A DNA stretch of 64,000 nt from Fidelibacterota bacterium (GTDB taxonomy: Bacteria > Fidelibacterota > Marinisomatia > Marinisomatales > TCS55), in contig JAPYRG010000004.1 of NCBI GenBank assembly GCA_029936965.1, forward strand, positions 1-64,000, read 5' to 3'. Below the pieces are notes generated by a model. It was not told the origin of the DNA and ran no database searches. It saw nothing but the letters and a program-made list of their open reading frames with translations. This document shows positions 3,783 to 11,689 of the stretch, in pieces. The translations under genes and the position numbers were made by a program. Numbering within the stretch: the first letter of the stretch is position 1; each line of letters starts with the position of its first letter.

Positions 3783-4655
3783 TTATGATTTAGGAAGGAA
3801 TACGTTTTTTCCTTCAAATAATTTTGTTCCATTAACATAGCTATAGTATTTCCTACACTCACATGAAAGGTATTCAATATCGATTGGTTGAAACTTTCGT
3901 TTTGCTTCTGGCCAATATTCTTCTTGTATTTTGATCATACGATCGCATGTTTGTTGATGAGTATCAAGACTAAAATATTGTTGTAGTCTATCTAAATAGG
4001 CTACTGCCCCAATTCCTGTTGGAACATGGCTAGTTGGATCAATTATATCTGGTCTATACCAAGAAATATCGATAACGGCCATAAAAATTGGAAAATCATT
4101 TTTCATTCGAAATTGATCATTGACCAATTTTGTAGCAACAATTACATCTCCATTTGCTTCAATAATAATATTTGTCAATGGTTCTTTAATATTTTCAAAA
4201 AGAATAGTGGCGGTATCCAGACGATTATATTCTTTTCCATTCCATTGGACTGGTTCAACAGGATAAGCAGTTGTGTTACACCAAGGATCAAGAGCATGTA
4301 AAGTATCTACCAATTTATTTGTTTTGGATAATATTGATGATGTCAATTGATTAAGTGTTTCGTGTCTATTGCACCATCTAGAAAAGAATAAAGCATGAAT
4401 TAATGTAGGCAAATCTTTACTTAAATTCTTGGCAAACTGTAGTATTGCCTTACTTCCGCGGTCATCTTCTCGAAAAACATTTAGAAATCTACCTTGTTGA
4501 AAGATGGGATCATCAGACCAAGGAAACGCATCCCCATTTTCTTTTTTTAAACGGATACTTTCTCTTTCTTTGCAAAAATTAAAGAAAGACATTACCGGAT
4601 CTTTCAATATTAGCCCATCAAGTGCTGATGCATAGGGATTATCTAATTGATTCAT
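3783..4655 (-). CDS. aGPT-pyrophosphorylase / 5-hmdU DNA kinase helical-domain family protein
   Basis: Residues 45-64 read PWSDDPIFQQGRFLNVFRED, the family hallmark of the alpha-glutamyl/putrescinyl-thymine pyrophosphorylase and hydroxymethyl-dU DNA kinase helical domain group. Other family-like segments are RESIRLKKENG (31-41), a conserved Asp-containing helix near 196-206, PTGIGAVAYLDRL (212-224), and a C-terminal IEYLSCECRKYYSYVNG (260-276). Known members in phages act in thymine hypermodification, on 5-hydroxymethyl-dU or its pyrophosphate in DNA. The role of cellular members is not established to my knowledge. The gene overlaps the upstream TagF-like gene by an ATGA, so the two are translationally coupled. 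It ends an operon with inositol-phosphate and CDP-inositol enzymes. Whether the substrate is DNA, a nucleotide or a glycan is open. Confidence 0.7.
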   Translation of the reverse strand: MNQLDNPYASALDGLILKDPVMSFFNFCKERESIRLKKENGDAFPWSDDPIFQQGRFLNVFREDDRGSKAILQFAKNLSKDLPTLIHALFFSRWCNRHETLNQLTSSILSKTNKLVDTLHALDPWCNTTAYPVEPVQWNGKEYNRLDTATILFENIKEPLTNIIIEANGDVIVATKLVNDQFRMKNDFPIFMAVIDISWYRPDIIDPTSHVPTGIGAVAYLDRLQQYFSLDTHQQTCDRMIKIQEEYWPEAKRKFQPIDIEYLSCECRKYYSYVNGTKLFEGKNVFLPKS

Positions 4656-5704
4656 ATTTTTAACGATTTTATAAAATCTGCTGCTCTATCGGCACTTTTT
4701 CCATCATTAAAATAAAAGCAGTTGTGTAACATGTTTTCATATTGATCAAAATTGTTATTACTAAGTTCAATATCTATCATTGAGCAGATATCATTCTTGT
4801 TACTTTGATAGGTTTGTACAATATCTAATATATTCAAATCTGCAGGCATATTATGAAGTTGATCATAATTGTTATCTACAATTATGATTGGTTTGCATGT
4901 TATTAAATATTCATAATTTATCGATGATGTGTCACTGATCAAAAGATCAGATATTGCAAAGTCATTCATTGTGTTATTTTTAATTATTTTTGCAGGATTC
5001 GAGAAATACACATGTTTTAAACCATTTAATTTTGCCCATATCTTTAATTTAACAATATGACTTCTATCTTGAAAATGAGGTCTTATTATAAGATTATGCT
5101 CTCTATTAATTTCTCTACAAAATTTCTTACCGAATCTTTTAAGTGTTCCATTACCCCACTCCCAAGTTGGAGCGTATAATATATTTTTTCTCGTTTTATC
5201 TTTTATACCCAAATATTGTGAATATTCATCTTTATTGATATTGTTATTTAAGTATTCATCAAATTTTGGATATCCTATTTTAATAAGTTTTTCATCAGGA
5301 ATTTTAATTCCCACATCTTTTATTTTATGTAAATGTTTTTCACCAGAAATAAAATGATAATCATATGTTTCTAGGGAATGTGCAGAACCACCATATTTTT
5401 TATCTCCAGCACCATGACCAATAAAAATAGAAATAGATATATCCTTATTATTCTTTATAATAGTATTGGAACATGATACAATAATACCCTTTAGATCTAA
5501 TTCCTTTTTGAGGTCTCTGATTATCACATCAGGAGTATTTATAAATCTATTTTCTGTTGAATTGGTTGCTGAATTAGCCATATAGAATTTGAACCTTAGA
5601 AAACGATTTAATTTATTTACTACAAAGGTACCGCCTGTTTGTGTAAAAACTGGTTTTATATGAGCATATTGATATACTTGATTTGCGTAATAGTATATAT
5701 TCAA
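4652..5704 (-). CDS. CDP-glycerol glycerophosphotransferase (TagF/TagB)-like transferase
   Basis: This 350-residue GT-B-like protein carries the polyol-phosphate transferase landmarks: GHGAG (96-100, in the position of HGTPLK in TagF), ISGEKH (119-124), YPKFDEY (145-151), ILYAPTWEW (175-183), RPH (208-210) and ISDTSSINYEY (256-266) followed by KPIIIVD. Family enzymes move an alcohol phosphate from a CDP-alcohol to an acceptor glycan or lipid. No CDP-glycerol synthase is visible nearby. Instead the two genes immediately upstream should make inositol-1-phosphate and CDP-inositol, so CDP-inositol is the inferred donor. The family call is firm; the donor is inference. It overlaps the downstream gene by four bases. 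Confidence 0.75.
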   Translation of the reverse strand: MNIYYYANQVYQYAHIKPVFTQTGGTFVVNKLNRFLRFKFYMANSATNSTENRFINTPDVIIRDLKKELDLKGIIVSCSNTIIKNNKDISISIFIGHGAGDKKYGGSAHSLETYDYHFISGEKHLHKIKDVGIKIPDEKLIKIGYPKFDEYLNNNINKDEYSQYLGIKDKTRKNILYAPTWEWGNGTLKRFGKKFCREINREHNLIIRPHFQDRSHIVKLKIWAKLNGLKHVYFSNPAKIIKNNTMNDFAISDLLISDTSSINYEYLITCKPIIIVDNNYDQLHNMPADLNILDIVQTYQSNKNDICSMIDIELSNNNFDQYENMLHNCFYFNDGKSADRAADFIKSLKI

Positions 5705-5726
5705 TTATCAGAACCTAATCTTTTAT

Positions 5727-6449
5727 TTATTCAAATAATTTTCGATTCTTATTTATATAAACCAATGCTTCTGGAGTATCAATATCAAGCCAAAGACTAT
5801 CATCGATATTTACACCTCCAAGATCTTGATTATTTATTAATACGTTGCAAGCATCGGATAATGAATATTTTCCATTATCTTTAGCTTCTTGTAAAATTGA
5901 GAAGAATTCATATTTACACTTAAATAAACCACAATCTACTGCATTGTATATGAGCAAATCTTTTGACATTGCACTTACTAAATTAGATCTTTTTTCAATT
6001 ATTAATTTCATGGCGTCATCGGGATCATGAATAATATTAGTTTTATAGTCAGCTCCAACGTTTACTAATGTATTTGATAAATCACTATTCTTTATTTTTA
6101 ATAATAACTCATCGTTATAAAAGTGATCACTCATAGATATCATAAAATCATAGTTTTTAGGAATATTATTTTTTGATGCTAAAACACTGATTCCATTTGG
6201 TAAATCCCAATCATCATTATATGCTAACTCAATATTTATATTGAATTCATTTTTTGTTATATAATCATGTATCATCTCAGATTTGTGGCCTGTAACTATA
6301 ACTATCTCTGAAATCCCTGCAGATACACAATTTTCTATGAGATGTTCTAATAAAGTTTGATTAAAAACTTCAATTAATATTTTTGGTATACCATTTGATA
6401 TAGATGATAATCTTGACCCTCTACCTGCAGCGATAATAACTAATTTCAA
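5727..6449 (-). CDS. CTP:inositol-1-phosphate cytidylyltransferase-like nucleotidyltransferase
   Basis: This is a sugar-nucleotidyltransferase fold of 240 residues. The nucleotide loop is AAGRGSRL (7-14) with the following Lys in GIPKILIEV. The segments LPNGISVLAS (83-92) and ISMSDHFY (104-111) resemble the NG-S-L and MSDH motifs of the inositol-1-phosphate cytidylyltransferase (IPCT) branch rather than glucose or mannose pyrophosphorylases. LWLDIDTPEA (218-227) is the usual C-terminal metal-site motif. It stands alone and is not fused to a CDP-alcohol phosphatidyltransferase as in archaeal DIPP synthases. Adjacency to inositol-phosphate synthase (4 bases) supports CDP-inositol formation. Another CDP- or NDP-polyol product is possible. 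Confidence 0.7.
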   Translation of the reverse strand: MKLVIIAAGRGSRLSSISNGIPKILIEVFNQTLLEHLIENCVSAGISEIVIVTGHKSEMIHDYITKNEFNINIELAYNDDWDLPNGISVLASKNNIPKNYDFMISMSDHFYNDELLLKIKNSDLSNTLVNVGADYKTNIIHDPDDAMKLIIEKRSNLVSAMSKDLLIYNAVDCGLFKCKYEFFSILQEAKDNGKYSLSDACNVLINNQDLGGVNIDDSLWLDIDTPEALVYINKNRKLFE

Positions 6450-6453
6450 TTAT

Positions 6454-7755
6454 TTAACTTTTATAATAATCCAAACCTAGATGAGTTATAAGATCTTCAC
6501 CCATTATATGGCGTAAGGTATTTTTCAATTTTGCAAGCTGAACAAAAAGATCATGTTCAGGATCAAGAGTTGGTAAGCACATAGGACTCTTAAAATAAAA
6601 AGATAACCATTCTTGAATCCCGCCCATTTCAGATCTTTTTGCTAGATCAAGAAAAAGCACTAAATCAAGAACAATGGGTGCGGCTAGAATACTATCTCTA
6701 CATAAAAAGTCGACTTTAATTTGCATGGGATATCCTAACCAACCAAATATATCTATATTATCCCAACCTTCTTTATCATCACCCCTTGGAGGATAATAAT
6801 TAATTCTTACTTTATGATATAAATCATTATATAGATCTGGATTTTTATCAGGTTCTAGTATTGAATCTAAAACGCTAAGCTTACTTTCTTCTTTAGTTTT
6901 AAATGCATCTGGATCATCAAGAACTTCTCCATCTCTATTGCCAAGTATATTTGTTGAAAACCATCCCTTAATTCCTAATTGTCTGGCTTTTAAACCAGGA
7001 GCTAAAATTGTCTTCATTAACGTTTGACCAGTTTTAAAATCCTTACCAGCAATTGGGCAATTAGTTTGTTGGGAAAGCTCTTCAAGAGCTGGTATGTCAG
7101 CTGATAAATTTGGCGCACCATTTGCATATGGAATACCTAGTTTTATTGCTGCATAGGCATAAATCATACTTGGAGATATATCGGGATCATTATTTTCAAG
7201 ACCTTCTTCAAACTTGGATAGACTAGAATGAACATCGGAGGGGAGCAGATATATTTCTGTACTTCCACACCAGATCATTACATTGGAGGTTGCACCAGAT
7301 TTCTTATTAAAATGCTTTATATCATCCCTTACCTGTTCAGCAAGGTCCATCTTATTTTTTCCAGTCTTTACCCAATCGCCAGATAATCTTCTTACAAATC
7401 TTTTATCAAATACAGCTTTATAAACATTTATCGACTCAAGGTCTGATTTAAGATCATTCAATAGATTTGTATCTAAAACCTCAGATCGAAGACTGATTTC
7501 ATAAACATTTTCATCAGCGATATCCCATCCCCCAAAAACTAAATTATTTAAATCAGCTAGGGGCGCAAAATCCTTGATTATTGGAGATCGATCTTCAGTT
7601 CTTTTTCCTAATCGAATGGAGCCCATTTGGGTCATACTCCCAATGGGTTTGGCTAATCCTTTATTGCAAGCTATCACTCCACAAATAAATGTACTTGCAA
7701 CGGCTCCCATACCGGGAATAAGCACTCCTAATTTTTCATTATTATTATTTTTCAT
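6454..7755 (-). CDS. ino1: myo-inositol-1-phosphate synthase
   Basis: The 433-residue protein converts glucose-6-phosphate to inositol-phosphate using bound NAD. It shows the NAD-binding motif GMGAVASTF (15-23), NGAPNLSAD (212-220), the active-site Lys segment IAGKDFKTGQT (235-245) and NILGNRDG (269-276), all characteristic of the MIPS/INO1 family. Length fits prokaryotic members. It lies 101 bases downstream of asnB with an AT-only dyad between, and 4 bases before the cytidylyltransferase gene. This is a direct supply line for activated inositol. Regulation is probably shared with asnB if transcription reads through the gap. Confidence 0.9.
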   Translation of the reverse strand: MKNNNNEKLGVLIPGMGAVASTFICGVIACNKGLAKPIGSMTQMGSIRLGKRTEDRSPIIKDFAPLADLNNLVFGGWDIADENVYEISLRSEVLDTNLLNDLKSDLESINVYKAVFDKRFVRRLSGDWVKTGKNKMDLAEQVRDDIKHFNKKSGATSNVMIWCGSTEIYLLPSDVHSSLSKFEEGLENNDPDISPSMIYAYAAIKLGIPYANGAPNLSADIPALEELSQQTNCPIAGKDFKTGQTLMKTILAPGLKARQLGIKGWFSTNILGNRDGEVLDDPDAFKTKEESKLSVLDSILEPDKNPDLYNDLYHKVRINYYPPRGDDKEGWDNIDIFGWLGYPMQIKVDFLCRDSILAAPIVLDLVLFLDLAKRSEMGGIQEWLSFYFKSPMCLPTLDPEHDLFVQLAKLKNTLRHIMGEDLITHLGLDYYKS

Positions 7756-7856: not shown

Positions 7857-9446
7857 TTATTCTGAATATCCTTCCAATTCTCTTGCAGATGGGTCTGTAG
7901 TGGAAGACCATTTTGGCATCCAGTAATGTGGGATTAATTTATTTTGATTTGCAAAAAACGAATCAAATACTTTCCGATAGTAATAACTTTCTTTCAATTG
8001 AGGTGGACAATGTTCATAATTATCTTTTTGTTCTAAAAATTCCCTATCTGTAATTATATCATCTACATGATTTTGAATAATTTTATGCCAAGATTTCTTT
8101 TGGGGGCTTACACCATCAGAAAAAGCACATTTACGTCGCCAAAGAACTTCATCTGGTAGAACGTTTTGATTATCAAAGGCCTTTCTAAGTATATGCTTTT
8201 CTAATCTATCAATACCATTGAATTGTTTCAATTCAGGTGGTATTGATAGATAATATTTTACAAATGCTTTATCTAAAAATGGTGTCCGAGCGTCTAAGCC
8301 ATTAGAGCTTATACTTCGATCCGATCGTAATACATCAAAATAATGTATTTCTTTTATTAAGCGCTTACTCTCACTTTGCAGACTATTTTTTGAAGGGGCA
8401 TTTTTAAGATACACGTATCCGCAGCAAACTTCATCGCTTCCATCTCCATTAAAAATTACTTTACAATCCGTATTTTCCTTAATGTATTTGGATACTAGAT
8501 AATTTCCTACACTTGCTCTAACTGTAGTAGTATCATAGGATTCAATATTATAAATAACAGTTTCTATTGCATTTAAAAATTCATTTTCAGAAATTTCAAT
8601 TTGATGATGCTTTGTATTAAGATAATTAGCAACAATTTCTGAATATTCTAAATCAATACTTCCTTTCATTCCAATTGAAAACGTATTTAGTTGGCCACTT
8701 TGTTGGTATTTTGATACTAGACTAGTAATTAAGCTTGAATCAAGACCTCCAGATAAAAGGCAGCCTATTTCTCTTTCGGACATTAGCCGCTTTTCTATGG
8801 CATTAGTTAGAAGACCATTAATTTTTTTACATATAACTTTTTCATCGATTTCATCTATCAATTTTGCTTGATAATAAAAATATCTATTATATTTATTTAT
8901 ATCTACTGAACCCCACCAAGTTCCTGGAGGGAAGGGTGAAACTTCATCGCAAAATTGTATAATTGGTTTTGCTTCCGAAGAAATAAAAATTTCATTTCCT
9001 TTTTTACCTAAAAAACCTGGTCGTACTCCCATTGGATCTCTTGATGCAAATAATTCATTAGTGTTCGCATCATGTAAAACAAACATGAAGACACCATCAA
9101 GTTCTTGCACTGTTTTTTCAATACCCATTTTTCTATACATCTGTAATATGATTTCAGAGTCGGATCCAGTTTTCAAATTAAAACTATATTTATTTGCAAG
9201 TTCTAAATAATTATATATTTCACCATTACATATTAGCGTTAATGATTTATCATCTGGGTGCTTCATTGGTTGATCACCAGAATTACTTATACCCATGATT
9301 GCTAAACGATGAAAACCAAATAAGATATCCGTACCAATCTTTTTATGATGGGTATTGTCAGGTCCACGATAACTAATTAAATCAAAAGCATCAGCAAGAT
9401 CTGACCAATTATATCTATTACCACTATATGAGAATATTCCACACAT
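7857..9446 (-). CDS. asnB: Asparagine synthetase B (glutamine-hydrolysing)
   Basis: This 529-residue two-domain enzyme makes asparagine from aspartate, glutamine and ATP. The N-terminal Ntn amidotransferase has the Cys2 nucleophile (MCGIF), RGPD (27-30), NGEIYN (74-79) and GSDSE (94-98). The synthetase domain has the PP-loop SGGLDSS (232-238) and NGDGSDEVCCGY. Length and motifs match AsnB of the E. coli/eukaryotic type rather than the longer glycan-associated AsnB homologues. The start is fixed by a good Shine-Dalgarno, AAGGTGA, ending 4 bases upstream. Its leader carries an Asn-codon-rich peptide and an intrinsic terminator, which points to control by charged tRNA-Asn and therefore to a true asparagine-making role. 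It heads the inositol/TagF-like operon. Confidence 0.93.
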   Translation of the reverse strand: MCGIFSYSGNRYNWSDLADAFDLISYRGPDNTHHKKIGTDILFGFHRLAIMGISNSGDQPMKHPDDKSLTLICNGEIYNYLELANKYSFNLKTGSDSEIILQMYRKMGIEKTVQELDGVFMFVLHDANTNELFASRDPMGVRPGFLGKKGNEIFISSEAKPIIQFCDEVSPFPPGTWWGSVDINKYNRYFYYQAKLIDEIDEKVICKKINGLLTNAIEKRLMSEREIGCLLSGGLDSSLITSLVSKYQQSGQLNTFSIGMKGSIDLEYSEIVANYLNTKHHQIEISENEFLNAIETVIYNIESYDTTTVRASVGNYLVSKYIKENTDCKVIFNGDGSDEVCCGYVYLKNAPSKNSLQSESKRLIKEIHYFDVLRSDRSISSNGLDARTPFLDKAFVKYYLSIPPELKQFNGIDRLEKHILRKAFDNQNVLPDEVLWRRKCAFSDGVSPQKKSWHKIIQNHVDDIITDREFLEQKDNYEHCPPQLKESYYYRKVFDSFFANQNKLIPHYWMPKWSSTTDPSARELEGYSE

Positions 9447-9457
9447 ACTATCACCTT

Positions 9458-9495
9458 AAAAAAAACCCCCAAGTCAATTAAGGCTTAGGGGTTTT
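9458..9495 (-). terminator. Intrinsic terminator in the asnB leader (attenuator)
   Basis: Read on the minus strand, AAAACCCCTAAG (9495-9484) pairs with CTTGGGGGTTTT (9473-9462) over 12 bp with one G-T wobble, loop of 10, then a continuous T run to 9458. It lies only about 11 bases before the asnB ATG and overlaps the spacing to its ribosome-binding site. It must therefore act on transcripts entering asnB, not on transcripts leaving a gene. Confidence 0.9.
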
Positions 9496-9519
9496 AAATC
9501 TTTTTCTTATCTCAGTTTT

Positions 9520-9591
9520 TTAAATGAGACACCCCATGCCAAACCTAGTGGCATTATTATAATTATTATTAATTATATTATATTGTCTCAT
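9520..9591 (-). CDS. Asn-rich leader peptide of asnB operon
   Basis: This is a 23-codon open frame, ATG 9591-9589 to TAA 9522-9520. It contains six Asn codons, all AAT, at codons 5, 8-10 and 12-13 (MRQYNIINNNYNN then ATRFGMGCLI). An in-frame ATG five codons earlier (9606) would add one more Asn. AAAGG at 9612-9608 is the only Shine-Dalgarno-like stretch, somewhat far (about 16 bases) from the 9591 start. The peptide is followed by the terminator and asnB. Asn is common in AT-rich random frames, so the call rests on codon clustering plus the matched RNA structures, not on codon content alone. Confidence 0.8.
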   Translation of the reverse strand: MRQYNIINNNYNNATRFGMGCLI

Positions 9592-9679
9592 AATCTTGTT
9601 AAACATACCTTTAATTATTACTTTTTCAAAAAAGAATATTTATCTTATTATTTATAGTTTGTTGTTCCGTTCAAATAGC

Positions 9680-11689
9680 ATGTTTTATCAATCACGAAGA
9701 ATAAATTTTATTTTTAAAAATATTTTAATATTTTTTTTGTTATTCACAATATTCAGAACATTCTTTTTTGTATTCTTTAATTCTACATCTGAAAATTATA
9801 CATTTCTGATGCTATTTAAGGCATTATTAATTGGAATAAAATTTGATCTCCGTTTAGCGGTTATATTATGTTTCCCACAAATCATTTTATCAGTATTACC
9901 ATATATAAATATTACTAATTCCACTTTGAATAAAAATATTTCCAAAATTTATAATTATACATCTATAGTAATTCTACTTTTATTTTATTCAGTTGATTTT
10001 GGCCATTATTCATATCTTGGAAGGAGAGTCGATGTTAGTGTTCTAAGATTCTTAGAAAATCCTCAGATTTCTGCCCAAATGATATGGGAAAGTTATCCTG
10101 TGCTATTAATACTAATTCTTTTATCATTTATCTTTTTTGGGTTTAAACTACTTTTTGAATTATCATATACGAAATTATTAACAAATCAAAATATTATAGC
10201 AATAAGGAAAAAAATATTTATCATCAATATTAGTGGCTTGATTATCCTATTTAGTTTATGGGGAACGTTTAAGCAATACCCATTGCGATGGAGTGATGCT
10301 TTCTTTTCAAATAACCCGTTTATTTCTGCTCTTGGGTTGAATCCTTTGCTATACTATAATGATACTAGACGTTTTGCTAAAGATGATTATAATCTGGAAA
10401 GAACCAAACAATATTATCCGCTGCTATCTGAATATTTTTCAATAAAAAAACCTGATTCTAAAGAGTTCAATTATGGTAGACCTTTTACAAGGACTACTCA
10501 TTCTAATCAACGGCCGAACATTATAATTATATTTTTAGAATCAGTTGGTTCGAATAGATTAAGCGCTCTTGGGAACCCTTTAAATGTTACTCCTAATCTT
10601 GATCACATAATTGAAAATGGTATTCTATTTGATCAGTTTTATGTTCCATTTATAGGGACTGCCCGATCTTTATTTACAATGGTGACTGGAATTCCTGATG
10701 TTGCAAGAATTAAAACATCTTCACGCAATCCAAGAATAAATAAACAATATTCTATTATTAATGATTTTAAAGATTATGAAAAACATTATATAATGGGTGG
10801 CAGTGCAGGATGGGCAAATATTCGGGGATTTTTACAGCTTAATATTCATGATTTAACTATTACCGAGCTACATGATTTGGAAAGTCCAAGATTAGATGTT
10901 TGGGGAATATCTGATCATGATCTATTTAATGAATCACACCAAATCTTTGAAAACATTAATAAAGATAAACCTTTTTTTGCAATTATACAAACAGCAACAA
11001 ACCACAGACCATATTCAATACCAAAAGATGTTAAAGAATTTCAAATACAAAATCTTTCAAAGAAAGATGTTAACCGTGCAGGATTTAATTCGGTGGATCA
11101 ATATAATGCAATGAGATTACTTGATCATGCAATAGGAGAATATTTTTCATATGCTAAAAACTCCAAATATTTTGAAAACACCATTTTCTTTCTATTTGGA
11201 GATCATGGAACATCTGATCCCTGGGCGGAACATATGCCACTTTCTGATTATGAACTTTTATTACGATCTTATCATGTCCCCTTTATTATTTATGGTCCTG
11301 GATTGAAAGAAAAAGGCGTTATTCGTAGTGATATCTCTATGTTGCCTGATTTAATGCCCACTGTAGCCGGTTTCGCCGGGATTAGCTATCATAACCAAAC
11401 TTTAGGACATGACCTAATGTCACTTAAAGATAATCAAGAAAGTTATGCGCTAATTGTAGATAATGATCGTGCATATCCTACAATAGGTATAATCGGTAAG
11501 CAGTATTACTTAACAATGTACCATGATGGTACAAATATAAAATTGTATGATTTGCAATCATTGGGATCTCCTAATGATATAAAAGGCAATCATCCTGATG
11601 TTACAATGAATTATAGTAAATTAGTTCAAGCTCTCTATGAAACCTCAAAATATATGCTTTATCATAATAGTGAATTATTACAACCTTAA
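9680..11689 (+). CDS. LTA synthase-like sulfatase-fold membrane enzyme
   Basis: About 670 residues: several N-terminal transmembrane helices (first third), then an extracytoplasmic sulfatase/alkaline-phosphatase domain of the LtaS group. Visible landmarks are the metal-ligand Glu in IIFLESVG (about residue 286), the nucleophile Thr in GTARSLFTMVTG (about 329), and GDHGTSD (about 509) supplying Asp/His ligands. LtaS enzymes transfer phosphoglycerol or related groups onto glycolipids or glycans. I prefer the ATG at 9680; a TTG at 9596 would add 28 residues and overlap the divergent asnB leader. It is divergent from the inositol/TagF-like operon, suggesting related envelope phosphopolymer chemistry. 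The exact donor is unknown. Confidence 0.85.
   Translation: MFYQSRRINFIFKNILIFFLLFTIFRTFFFVFFNSTSENYTFLMLFKALLIGIKFDLRLAVILCFPQIILSVLPYINITNSTLNKNISKIYNYTSIVILLLFYSVDFGHYSYLGRRVDVSVLRFLENPQISAQMIWESYPVLLILILLSFIFFGFKLLFELSYTKLLTNQNIIAIRKKIFIINISGLIILFSLWGTFKQYPLRWSDAFFSNNPFISALGLNPLLYYNDTRRFAKDDYNLERTKQYYPLLSEYFSIKKPDSKEFNYGRPFTRTTHSNQRPNIIIIFLESVGSNRLSALGNPLNVTPNLDHIIENGILFDQFYVPFIGTARSLFTMVTGIPDVARIKTSSRNPRINKQYSIINDFKDYEKHYIMGGSAGWANIRGFLQLNIHDLTITELHDLESPRLDVWGISDHDLFNESHQIFENINKDKPFFAIIQTATNHRPYSIPKDVKEFQIQNLSKKDVNRAGFNSVDQYNAMRLLDHAIGEYFSYAKNSKYFENTIFFLFGDHGTSDPWAEHMPLSDYELLLRSYHVPFIIYGPGLKEKGVIRSDISMLPDLMPTVAGFAGISYHNQTLGHDLMSLKDNQESYALIVDNDRAYPTIGIIGKQYYLTMYHDGTNIKLYDLQSLGSPNDIKGNHPDVTMNYSKLVQALYETSKYMLYHNSELLQP

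Follow-up and report, generated by a model that had tools for sequence, protein, structure and literature searches.

What decides whether RNA polymerase reads through into asnB, the gene for asparagine synthetase, in this marine Neomarinimicrobiota bacterium? The question is raised by a short, asparagine-rich open reading frame and an intrinsic terminator that stand directly before the gene in the window, by which we mean the whole stretch of 64,000 nucleotides that was analysed. An earlier note on this DNA had read the region as an attenuator with the architecture of the trp and his leaders. Based on the gene, the leader, its pairings and their conservation among relatives, we consider it about 90% probable that asnB is preceded by a ribosome-mediated transcription attenuator specific for asparagine. 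The features are collected in Table 1.

Table 1. Features of the asnB leader region, with positions in the window, and leaders before other genes, with positions in their own loci
Feature	Position	Strand	Description and basis
Promoter-like site	9600..9629	-	TTGAAA 9629-9624, 16 nt, TATGTT(TA) 9607-9600
Leader ORF, MRQYNIINNNYNNATRFGMGCLI	9520..9591	-	23 codons, ATG 9591, TAA 9522-9520
Region 1, ATGAGACA	9584..9591	-	5' arm of P0, the 1:2 helix; in the minimum-energy fold, other clades have counterparts
Candidate stall zone, codons 8-13 (AAT AAT AAT TAT AAT AAT)	9553..9570	-	codon content and footprint folding
P1 hairpin, ATGCCA...TGGCAT	9536..9554	-	6 bp, right behind the Asn codons; fold and covariation
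Region 2, GGGG 9535-9532 and TGTCTCAT 9531-9524	9524..9535	-	partner of region 1 (P0) or of region 3 (antiterminator)
P2 3' arm, TGAGA	9510..9514	-	inner antiterminator helix with TCTCA 9529-9525; around the leader stop codon
Region 3, CCCC	9488..9491	-	common to antiterminator (with GGGG 9535-9532) and terminator
Intrinsic terminator (3:4), AAAACCCCTAAGCCTTAATTGACTTGGGGGTTTTTTTT	9458..9495	-	8-T tract 9465-9458; -16.7 kcal/mol
Shine-Dalgarno-like AAGGTGAT of asnB	9450..9457	-	outside the terminator; from sequence
asnB	7857..9446	-	glutamine-hydrolysing asparagine synthetase, 529 aa, N-terminal Met-Cys-Gly; gene proposed to be under control
Leader ORF and terminator before lysW-lysX	L098 482-618 (G057); L161 ~1500 (G008); L102 and L104 1501-1631 (G108, G109)		
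Leader with many Met and Cys codons (...MGIMMCLMCMYSS...) and terminator before thrC	L103 1501-1679 (G198)	-	covariance model

The product of the downstream gene scores 362 bits against TIGR01536 (cut-off 267) and carries the Pfam domains PF00733 and PF13537. Its nearest solved structure is the human-type ASNS 6gq3 (E 1e-125), and E. coli AsnB 1ct9 (E 2e-85) is more distant. asnB is the sole asparagine synthetase gene of the genome, present in one copy, and a search for asnA across the genome found none. An AsnRS is encoded as well (493 bits, well above its cut-off), so that charged tRNA-Asn should depend on the AsnB product. Neither trpE nor hisG was detected in this genome (G000), as in many relatives; since the assembly is 97% complete, the bacterium is probably auxotrophic for Trp and His, and asparagine synthesis would be a pathway that stays under control there. 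In the window's genus asnB is followed at 4652-7755 by genes for a myo-inositol-1-phosphate synthase, a nucleotidyltransferase and a CDP-glycerol transferase-like protein, possibly an inositol-phosphate polymer cluster that might share read-through from asnB. We considered whether asnB is itself a member of an inositol/polysaccharide cluster and rejected this, as these neighbours are common only within the genus; the leader is therefore not a feature of such a cluster. Neighbours and surrounding sequence otherwise differ between genera, indicating that the leader belongs to asnB.

The leader ORF begins 145 bases upstream of asnB. Six of its codons specify Asn, all as AAT (codons 5, 8, 9, 10, 12 and 13), bearing out the earlier description of six AAT codons with five of them in codons 8-13. 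At a G+C content of 31%, the window contains 704 short ATG ORFs, of which 12 have at least six Asn codons and 7 are followed by a terminator-like fold; only the asnB leader, taken in this count from the upstream in-frame ATG at 9606, combines both. The promoter-like site in front of it matches the consensus at 9 of 12 positions, which is weak when taken alone. In genera g1 and g6 (the window, L006 and L014-L018), exactly 8 nt separate the leader ATG from a TAnnTTT(A/G)-like element upstream of it, from which we infer that the transcript starts within a few bases of that ATG. No Shine-Dalgarno sequence is evident for the leader ORF, and together with the position of the element this suggests that the leader transcripts are near-leaderless. 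Conserved elements resembling a promoter were seen only upstream of the leader, with none downstream of 9520.

The predicted fold contains a 12-bp terminator stem, and the T tract ends 11 bases before the asnB ATG (9446), both as the earlier note had it. The 8-bp helix that it had drawn between the start and the end of the leader, ATGAGACA/TGTCTCAT (P0), lies in the minimum-energy fold together with the P1 hairpin (z -2.4; 2 of 200 shuffles as good) and serves as the predicted 1:2 competitor. P1 had been noticed too, and the hairpin stands; because it does not overlap the antiterminator, it is more probably an RNA polymerase pausing hairpin than the 1:2 competitor. The alternative pairing that had been proposed to disarm the terminator, GGC..GGGGT with ACCCC..GCC, holds in its GGGG:CCCC core, which is conserved, but its GGC..GCC extension is not the conserved part. 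What had been missed is the conserved inner helix P2 (TCTCA/TGAGA in the window) around the leader stop codon. A GGGG-CCCC-GGGGTTTTTT pattern, which reads antiterminator and terminator at once, has a single match in the 2.14-Mb genome, at the asnB leader. Its matches in relatives are mostly asnB or trpE leaders, and the reversed pattern used as a control gave no match in 41 genomes.

We looked for the arrangement in 61 near genomes and then in 245 genomes of the phylum. In 33 genomes there was a close asnB ortholog (58-89% identity) whose upstream DNA could be read, and in 22 of these, from six genera and two families, the gene is preceded by an Asn-rich leader with the mutually exclusive pairings of a trp/his-type attenuator. 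The leader-bearing genera are g1, g2, g3 and g6 of the window's family (f1) and g14 and g34 of a second family in the same order (f7). The other 11 genomes (g8, g23, g38 and g40) lack the whole element, and no relative was met that keeps the terminator without the leader. Three changes, such as a single gain and two losses, explain the presence of the leader on the AsnB tree, and by this distribution leader and asnB are co-inherited. Rows of g3 (f1) and g34 (f7) interleave in the tree, suggesting that asnB moved between families together with its leader. In one locus (L011, from G013) terminator and asnB are separated by an insertion of ~150 bp that has terminal inverted repeats (AACTCTTTGATAAACCTA...TAGGTTTATCAAAGAGTT). 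Outside the close orthologs, we saw no leader by eye in 17 readable upstream regions of distant AsnB paralogs (35-39% identity), and a covariance model of the asnB leader gave no asnB matches beyond the known ones. A general Asn regulon was also considered and rejected: no such leader precedes the four asnA loci or the three asnS loci with readable upstream DNA (asnS of L071 was left out, as the start of the gene is unresolved).

Alignment of the relatives' asnB upstream regions, which had been suggested as a check on the earlier reading, supports it on both of its parts, the codons and the pairings. Each leader keeps 6-12 Asn codons with synonymous swaps between AAT and AAC. Over the 560 in-frame codons of 20 scored leaders there are 170 Asn codons (118 AAT, 52 AAC) and 21 Lys codons, and the two other frames of the same leaders hold 12 and 11 Asn codons. 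This concentration in one frame indicates that selection acts on translation, and the free mixing of AAT and AAC fits a single tRNA-Asn isoacceptor, which we take to read both codons. The peptides are 22-35 residues long and differ widely between clades outside the Asn run, and the leader stop codon lies 73-89 nt from asnB.

The pairings recur along with the codons. The terminator was found in all 22 loci, with compensatory changes in alignment A1, and the antiterminator, GGGG(G):CCCC(C) plus an inner helix, is likewise present in 22 of 22. The GGGG:CCCC part hardly varies and so says little alone. The inner helix P2 is TCTCA/TGAGA in the window's genus, AAGCTTT/AAAGCTT in g3/g34, CTGTGT/ACACAG in g2, GTGTAA/TTACAC in g14, and CCCGT/ACGGG, TTCCGT/ACGGAA or CTCGT/ACGAG in g6. 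Column-wise covariation of P2 over all clades is moderate, because the helix shifts register between clades, and P2 was tested instead by per-sequence shuffles and cross-clade swaps. The segment enclosed by the antiterminator folds better than dinucleotide shuffles (combined z -10, a value that overstates independence, since the sequences are related), and an arm pairs better with a partner from its own clade than with one from another clade. P0 has counterparts in GGTTACAC/GTGTAACC (L018), AATTATA/TGTAATT (L019) and TTTACACAG/CTGTGTAGA (L012), and in g3/g34 in GAAGC/GCTTT plus UAUGG/CCAUA, UUCGG/CCGGA or UUUUG/CAAAA. It undergoes compensatory changes across clades and is weak in L006; counts from alignments A4 and A5, which were built from the two P0 arms, lean towards P0, which is judged more fairly by the slid controls and duplex energies. 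P1 occurs in g1, g2, g6 and g14 and is absent in g3/g34; its 14 sequences contain 8 doubly changed cells, a number reached by none of 500 shuffles. P0 (1:2), antiterminator (2:3) and terminator (3:4) are thus, on this comparative evidence, three mutually exclusive recurring pairings.

To place the ribosome on these structures, we folded the nascent RNA of 21 leaders with ribosome masks of -18 to +11 around the A site, in line with the earlier suggestion of folding under constrained ribosome positions, and the outcome agreed with that reading. With a ribosome at the stop codon the antiterminator probability was 0.00 in 21 of 21 leaders. This value follows from geometry, as the GGGG constantly lies 12-15 nt before the stop, a distance that is itself a conserved feature. 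With a ribosome at Asn codons the predicted probability was 0.5-1.0 at nearly all positions, failures being mostly at the last Asn, and 0.59-0.94 in the window leader. The antiterminator was also predicted in many leaders with no ribosome on the RNA (0.93 in the window), and an untranslated leader might therefore read through. In nearly all sequences the terminator exceeds the antiterminator in stability, so the choice between them must be kinetic, made during transcription. The choice in the E. coli trp leader is likewise kinetic.

Taken together, these features suggest the following course of events. RNA polymerase would start just upstream of the leader, with a ribosome trailing it through the leader ORF. 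When Asn-tRNA is ample, the ribosome would reach the stop codon and cover the GGGG and the 5' arm of P2; the antiterminator would be blocked, the terminator would fold, and transcription would end near 9458. When charged tRNA-Asn is scarce, we infer that the ribosome would stall on the Asn codons between positions 5 and 13 and mask region 1, so that the 1:2 helix could not form and region 2 would stay free. GGGG and P2 would then capture the CCCC of the emerging terminator, and the polymerase would read on into asnB, whose expression would thereby change with the supply of charged tRNA-Asn.

Could the terminator instead end a separate short transcript, with asnB expressed from its own promoter near its ATG and the leader exerting no control? 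The intergenic region is very A+T-rich and chance promoter-like sites abound, but with 11 bases between T tract and ATG, a promoter whose start site lies behind the terminator could not fit. Relative to asnB, moreover, leader and terminator have come and gone together, and the antiterminator pairing is conserved, which makes an arrangement of this kind very unlikely. We hold it to be still less probable that the conserved alternative helices, standing as they do before an amino-acid gene, belong to another leader-RNA switch, such as a T-box for tRNA-Asn or a riboswitch for a ligand or protein, with the Asn codons a product of A+T-richness. T-box control is common for asparagine genes of Firmicutes. 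Here, a T-box covariance model found nothing in 9300-9800 with an E value of 10 or below, and among Rfam families, T-box and riboswitches included, nothing scored above its gathering score. The best sub-threshold scores went to leader families such as PyrG_leader and His_leader; membership in the latter (RF00514) was rejected, as its gathering score is 49 and the region reaches 24.3 bits. Against such a switch also speak the single frame in which the Asn codons persist through synonymous T/C changes, and the fixed distances of the paired regions from the leader stop codon.

Conservation of the leader ORF would also be expected if the leader encoded a functional small Asn-rich peptide, or if its translation were coupled to that of asnB by reinitiation, with the hairpins secondary. 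Reinitiation at short leaders has been proposed (PMC4833913), at discussed distances of 10-16 nt. The asnB leaders end 73-89 nt away, with a terminator in between, and the peptide varies freely outside the Asn run while the RNA pairing is kept, so we give these options hardly any weight. Attenuation by a ribosome on the Asn codons remains the reading that we favour.

The proposed attenuator resembles those of the trp and his operons of E. coli and Salmonella in having a leader ORF rich in codons for the end product, 1:2, 2:3 and 3:4 pairings, a stop codon whose position lets a terminating ribosome cover region 2, and an intrinsic terminator before the first gene. It differs in its amino acid, in preceding a single-gene operon, in its phylum, in a promoter-like site that abuts an ATG lacking an evident Shine-Dalgarno sequence, and in the separate P1 of four genera that does not overlap the antiterminator. 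Another difference is that the antiterminator is often predicted without a ribosome, whereas trp shows strong superattenuation. With Rfam His_leader (RF00514) and other leader families it shares the type of architecture, but amino acid and sequence differ. The T-box of Firmicutes asn genes also responds to tRNA-Asn charging by a choice between terminator and antiterminator, but there the RNA itself binds the tRNA and a leader ORF is lacking, while the asnB leader has one and no T-box match. AsnC, which acts on E. coli asnA, exerts feedback control of asparagine synthesis as well; it is a DNA-binding protein that senses free asparagine, in contrast to the ribosome stalling proposed here.

Operons known to be under ribosome-mediated attenuation are those for Trp, His, Leu, Ile/Val, Thr and Phe, and most cases come from Proteobacteria and Actinobacteria. 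According to a 2010 survey (PMC2965389), leader-peptide systems had until then been shown in these two phyla alone, to which the survey itself added Firmicutes. In open-access full texts we found no ribosome-mediated attenuator with Asn specificity, in keeping with the earlier impression that it is rarely or never described, and none in Marinimicrobia; a prior report elsewhere is possible. The mechanism is thus a known one, and asparagine specificity and host phylum appear to be new. The asnB leader would extend ribosome-mediated attenuation to a further amino acid and to a marine phylum that is mostly uncultured, and the ratio of short leader RNA to asnB mRNA in metatranscriptomes could serve as a readout of amino-acid starvation in uncultured ocean bacteria.

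Further leaders in the phylum bear on how general the mechanism may be. The covariance model recovers the asnB leaders and also finds matches before trpE, lysW-lysX and thrC. The trpE leader of G015 has the same architecture (...LIWWYNYGGTL). By direct inspection, Trp-rich leaders (of the YSWYWFF or the MNTKNYYSWYWFF type) precede trpE in most of 15 loci of the order, and His-rich leaders (HHHHH) precede hisG in 8 of 8 (trpE and hisG loci L109-L122 and L139-L146). As read from their sequences, these Trp and His leaders are attenuators of the textbook kind, and we use them as positive controls for the mechanism in this lineage; their presence implies that transcription and translation are coupled in the order. 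The lysW-lysX matches are from G057, G108 and G109. Two lysW-lysX leaders are rich in Lys/Arg codons (MSKKNNRPLARNKNIARRAKMLSVGVTV in G057, and MNYKTDKSTLIKNIKRRKTFNKKWYL), which suggests Lys or Arg attenuators; those of G108 and G109 are without clear codon bias. It is possible, though we would put it somewhat below even odds, that Neomarinimicrobiota carry a set of attenuators (Asn/asnB, Trp/trpE, His/hisG, Lys/Arg/lysW-lysX and perhaps Met/thrC) with ORFs at or near the 5' end of the transcript and ribosome loading without a Shine-Dalgarno sequence. If so, the specificities for Asn and for Lys/Arg would be new, and the start geometry would count as a new variant as well. The thrC of G198 encodes a threonine synthase (TIGR00260, above cut-off), and attenuation in response to Met would be unexpected for a Thr gene.
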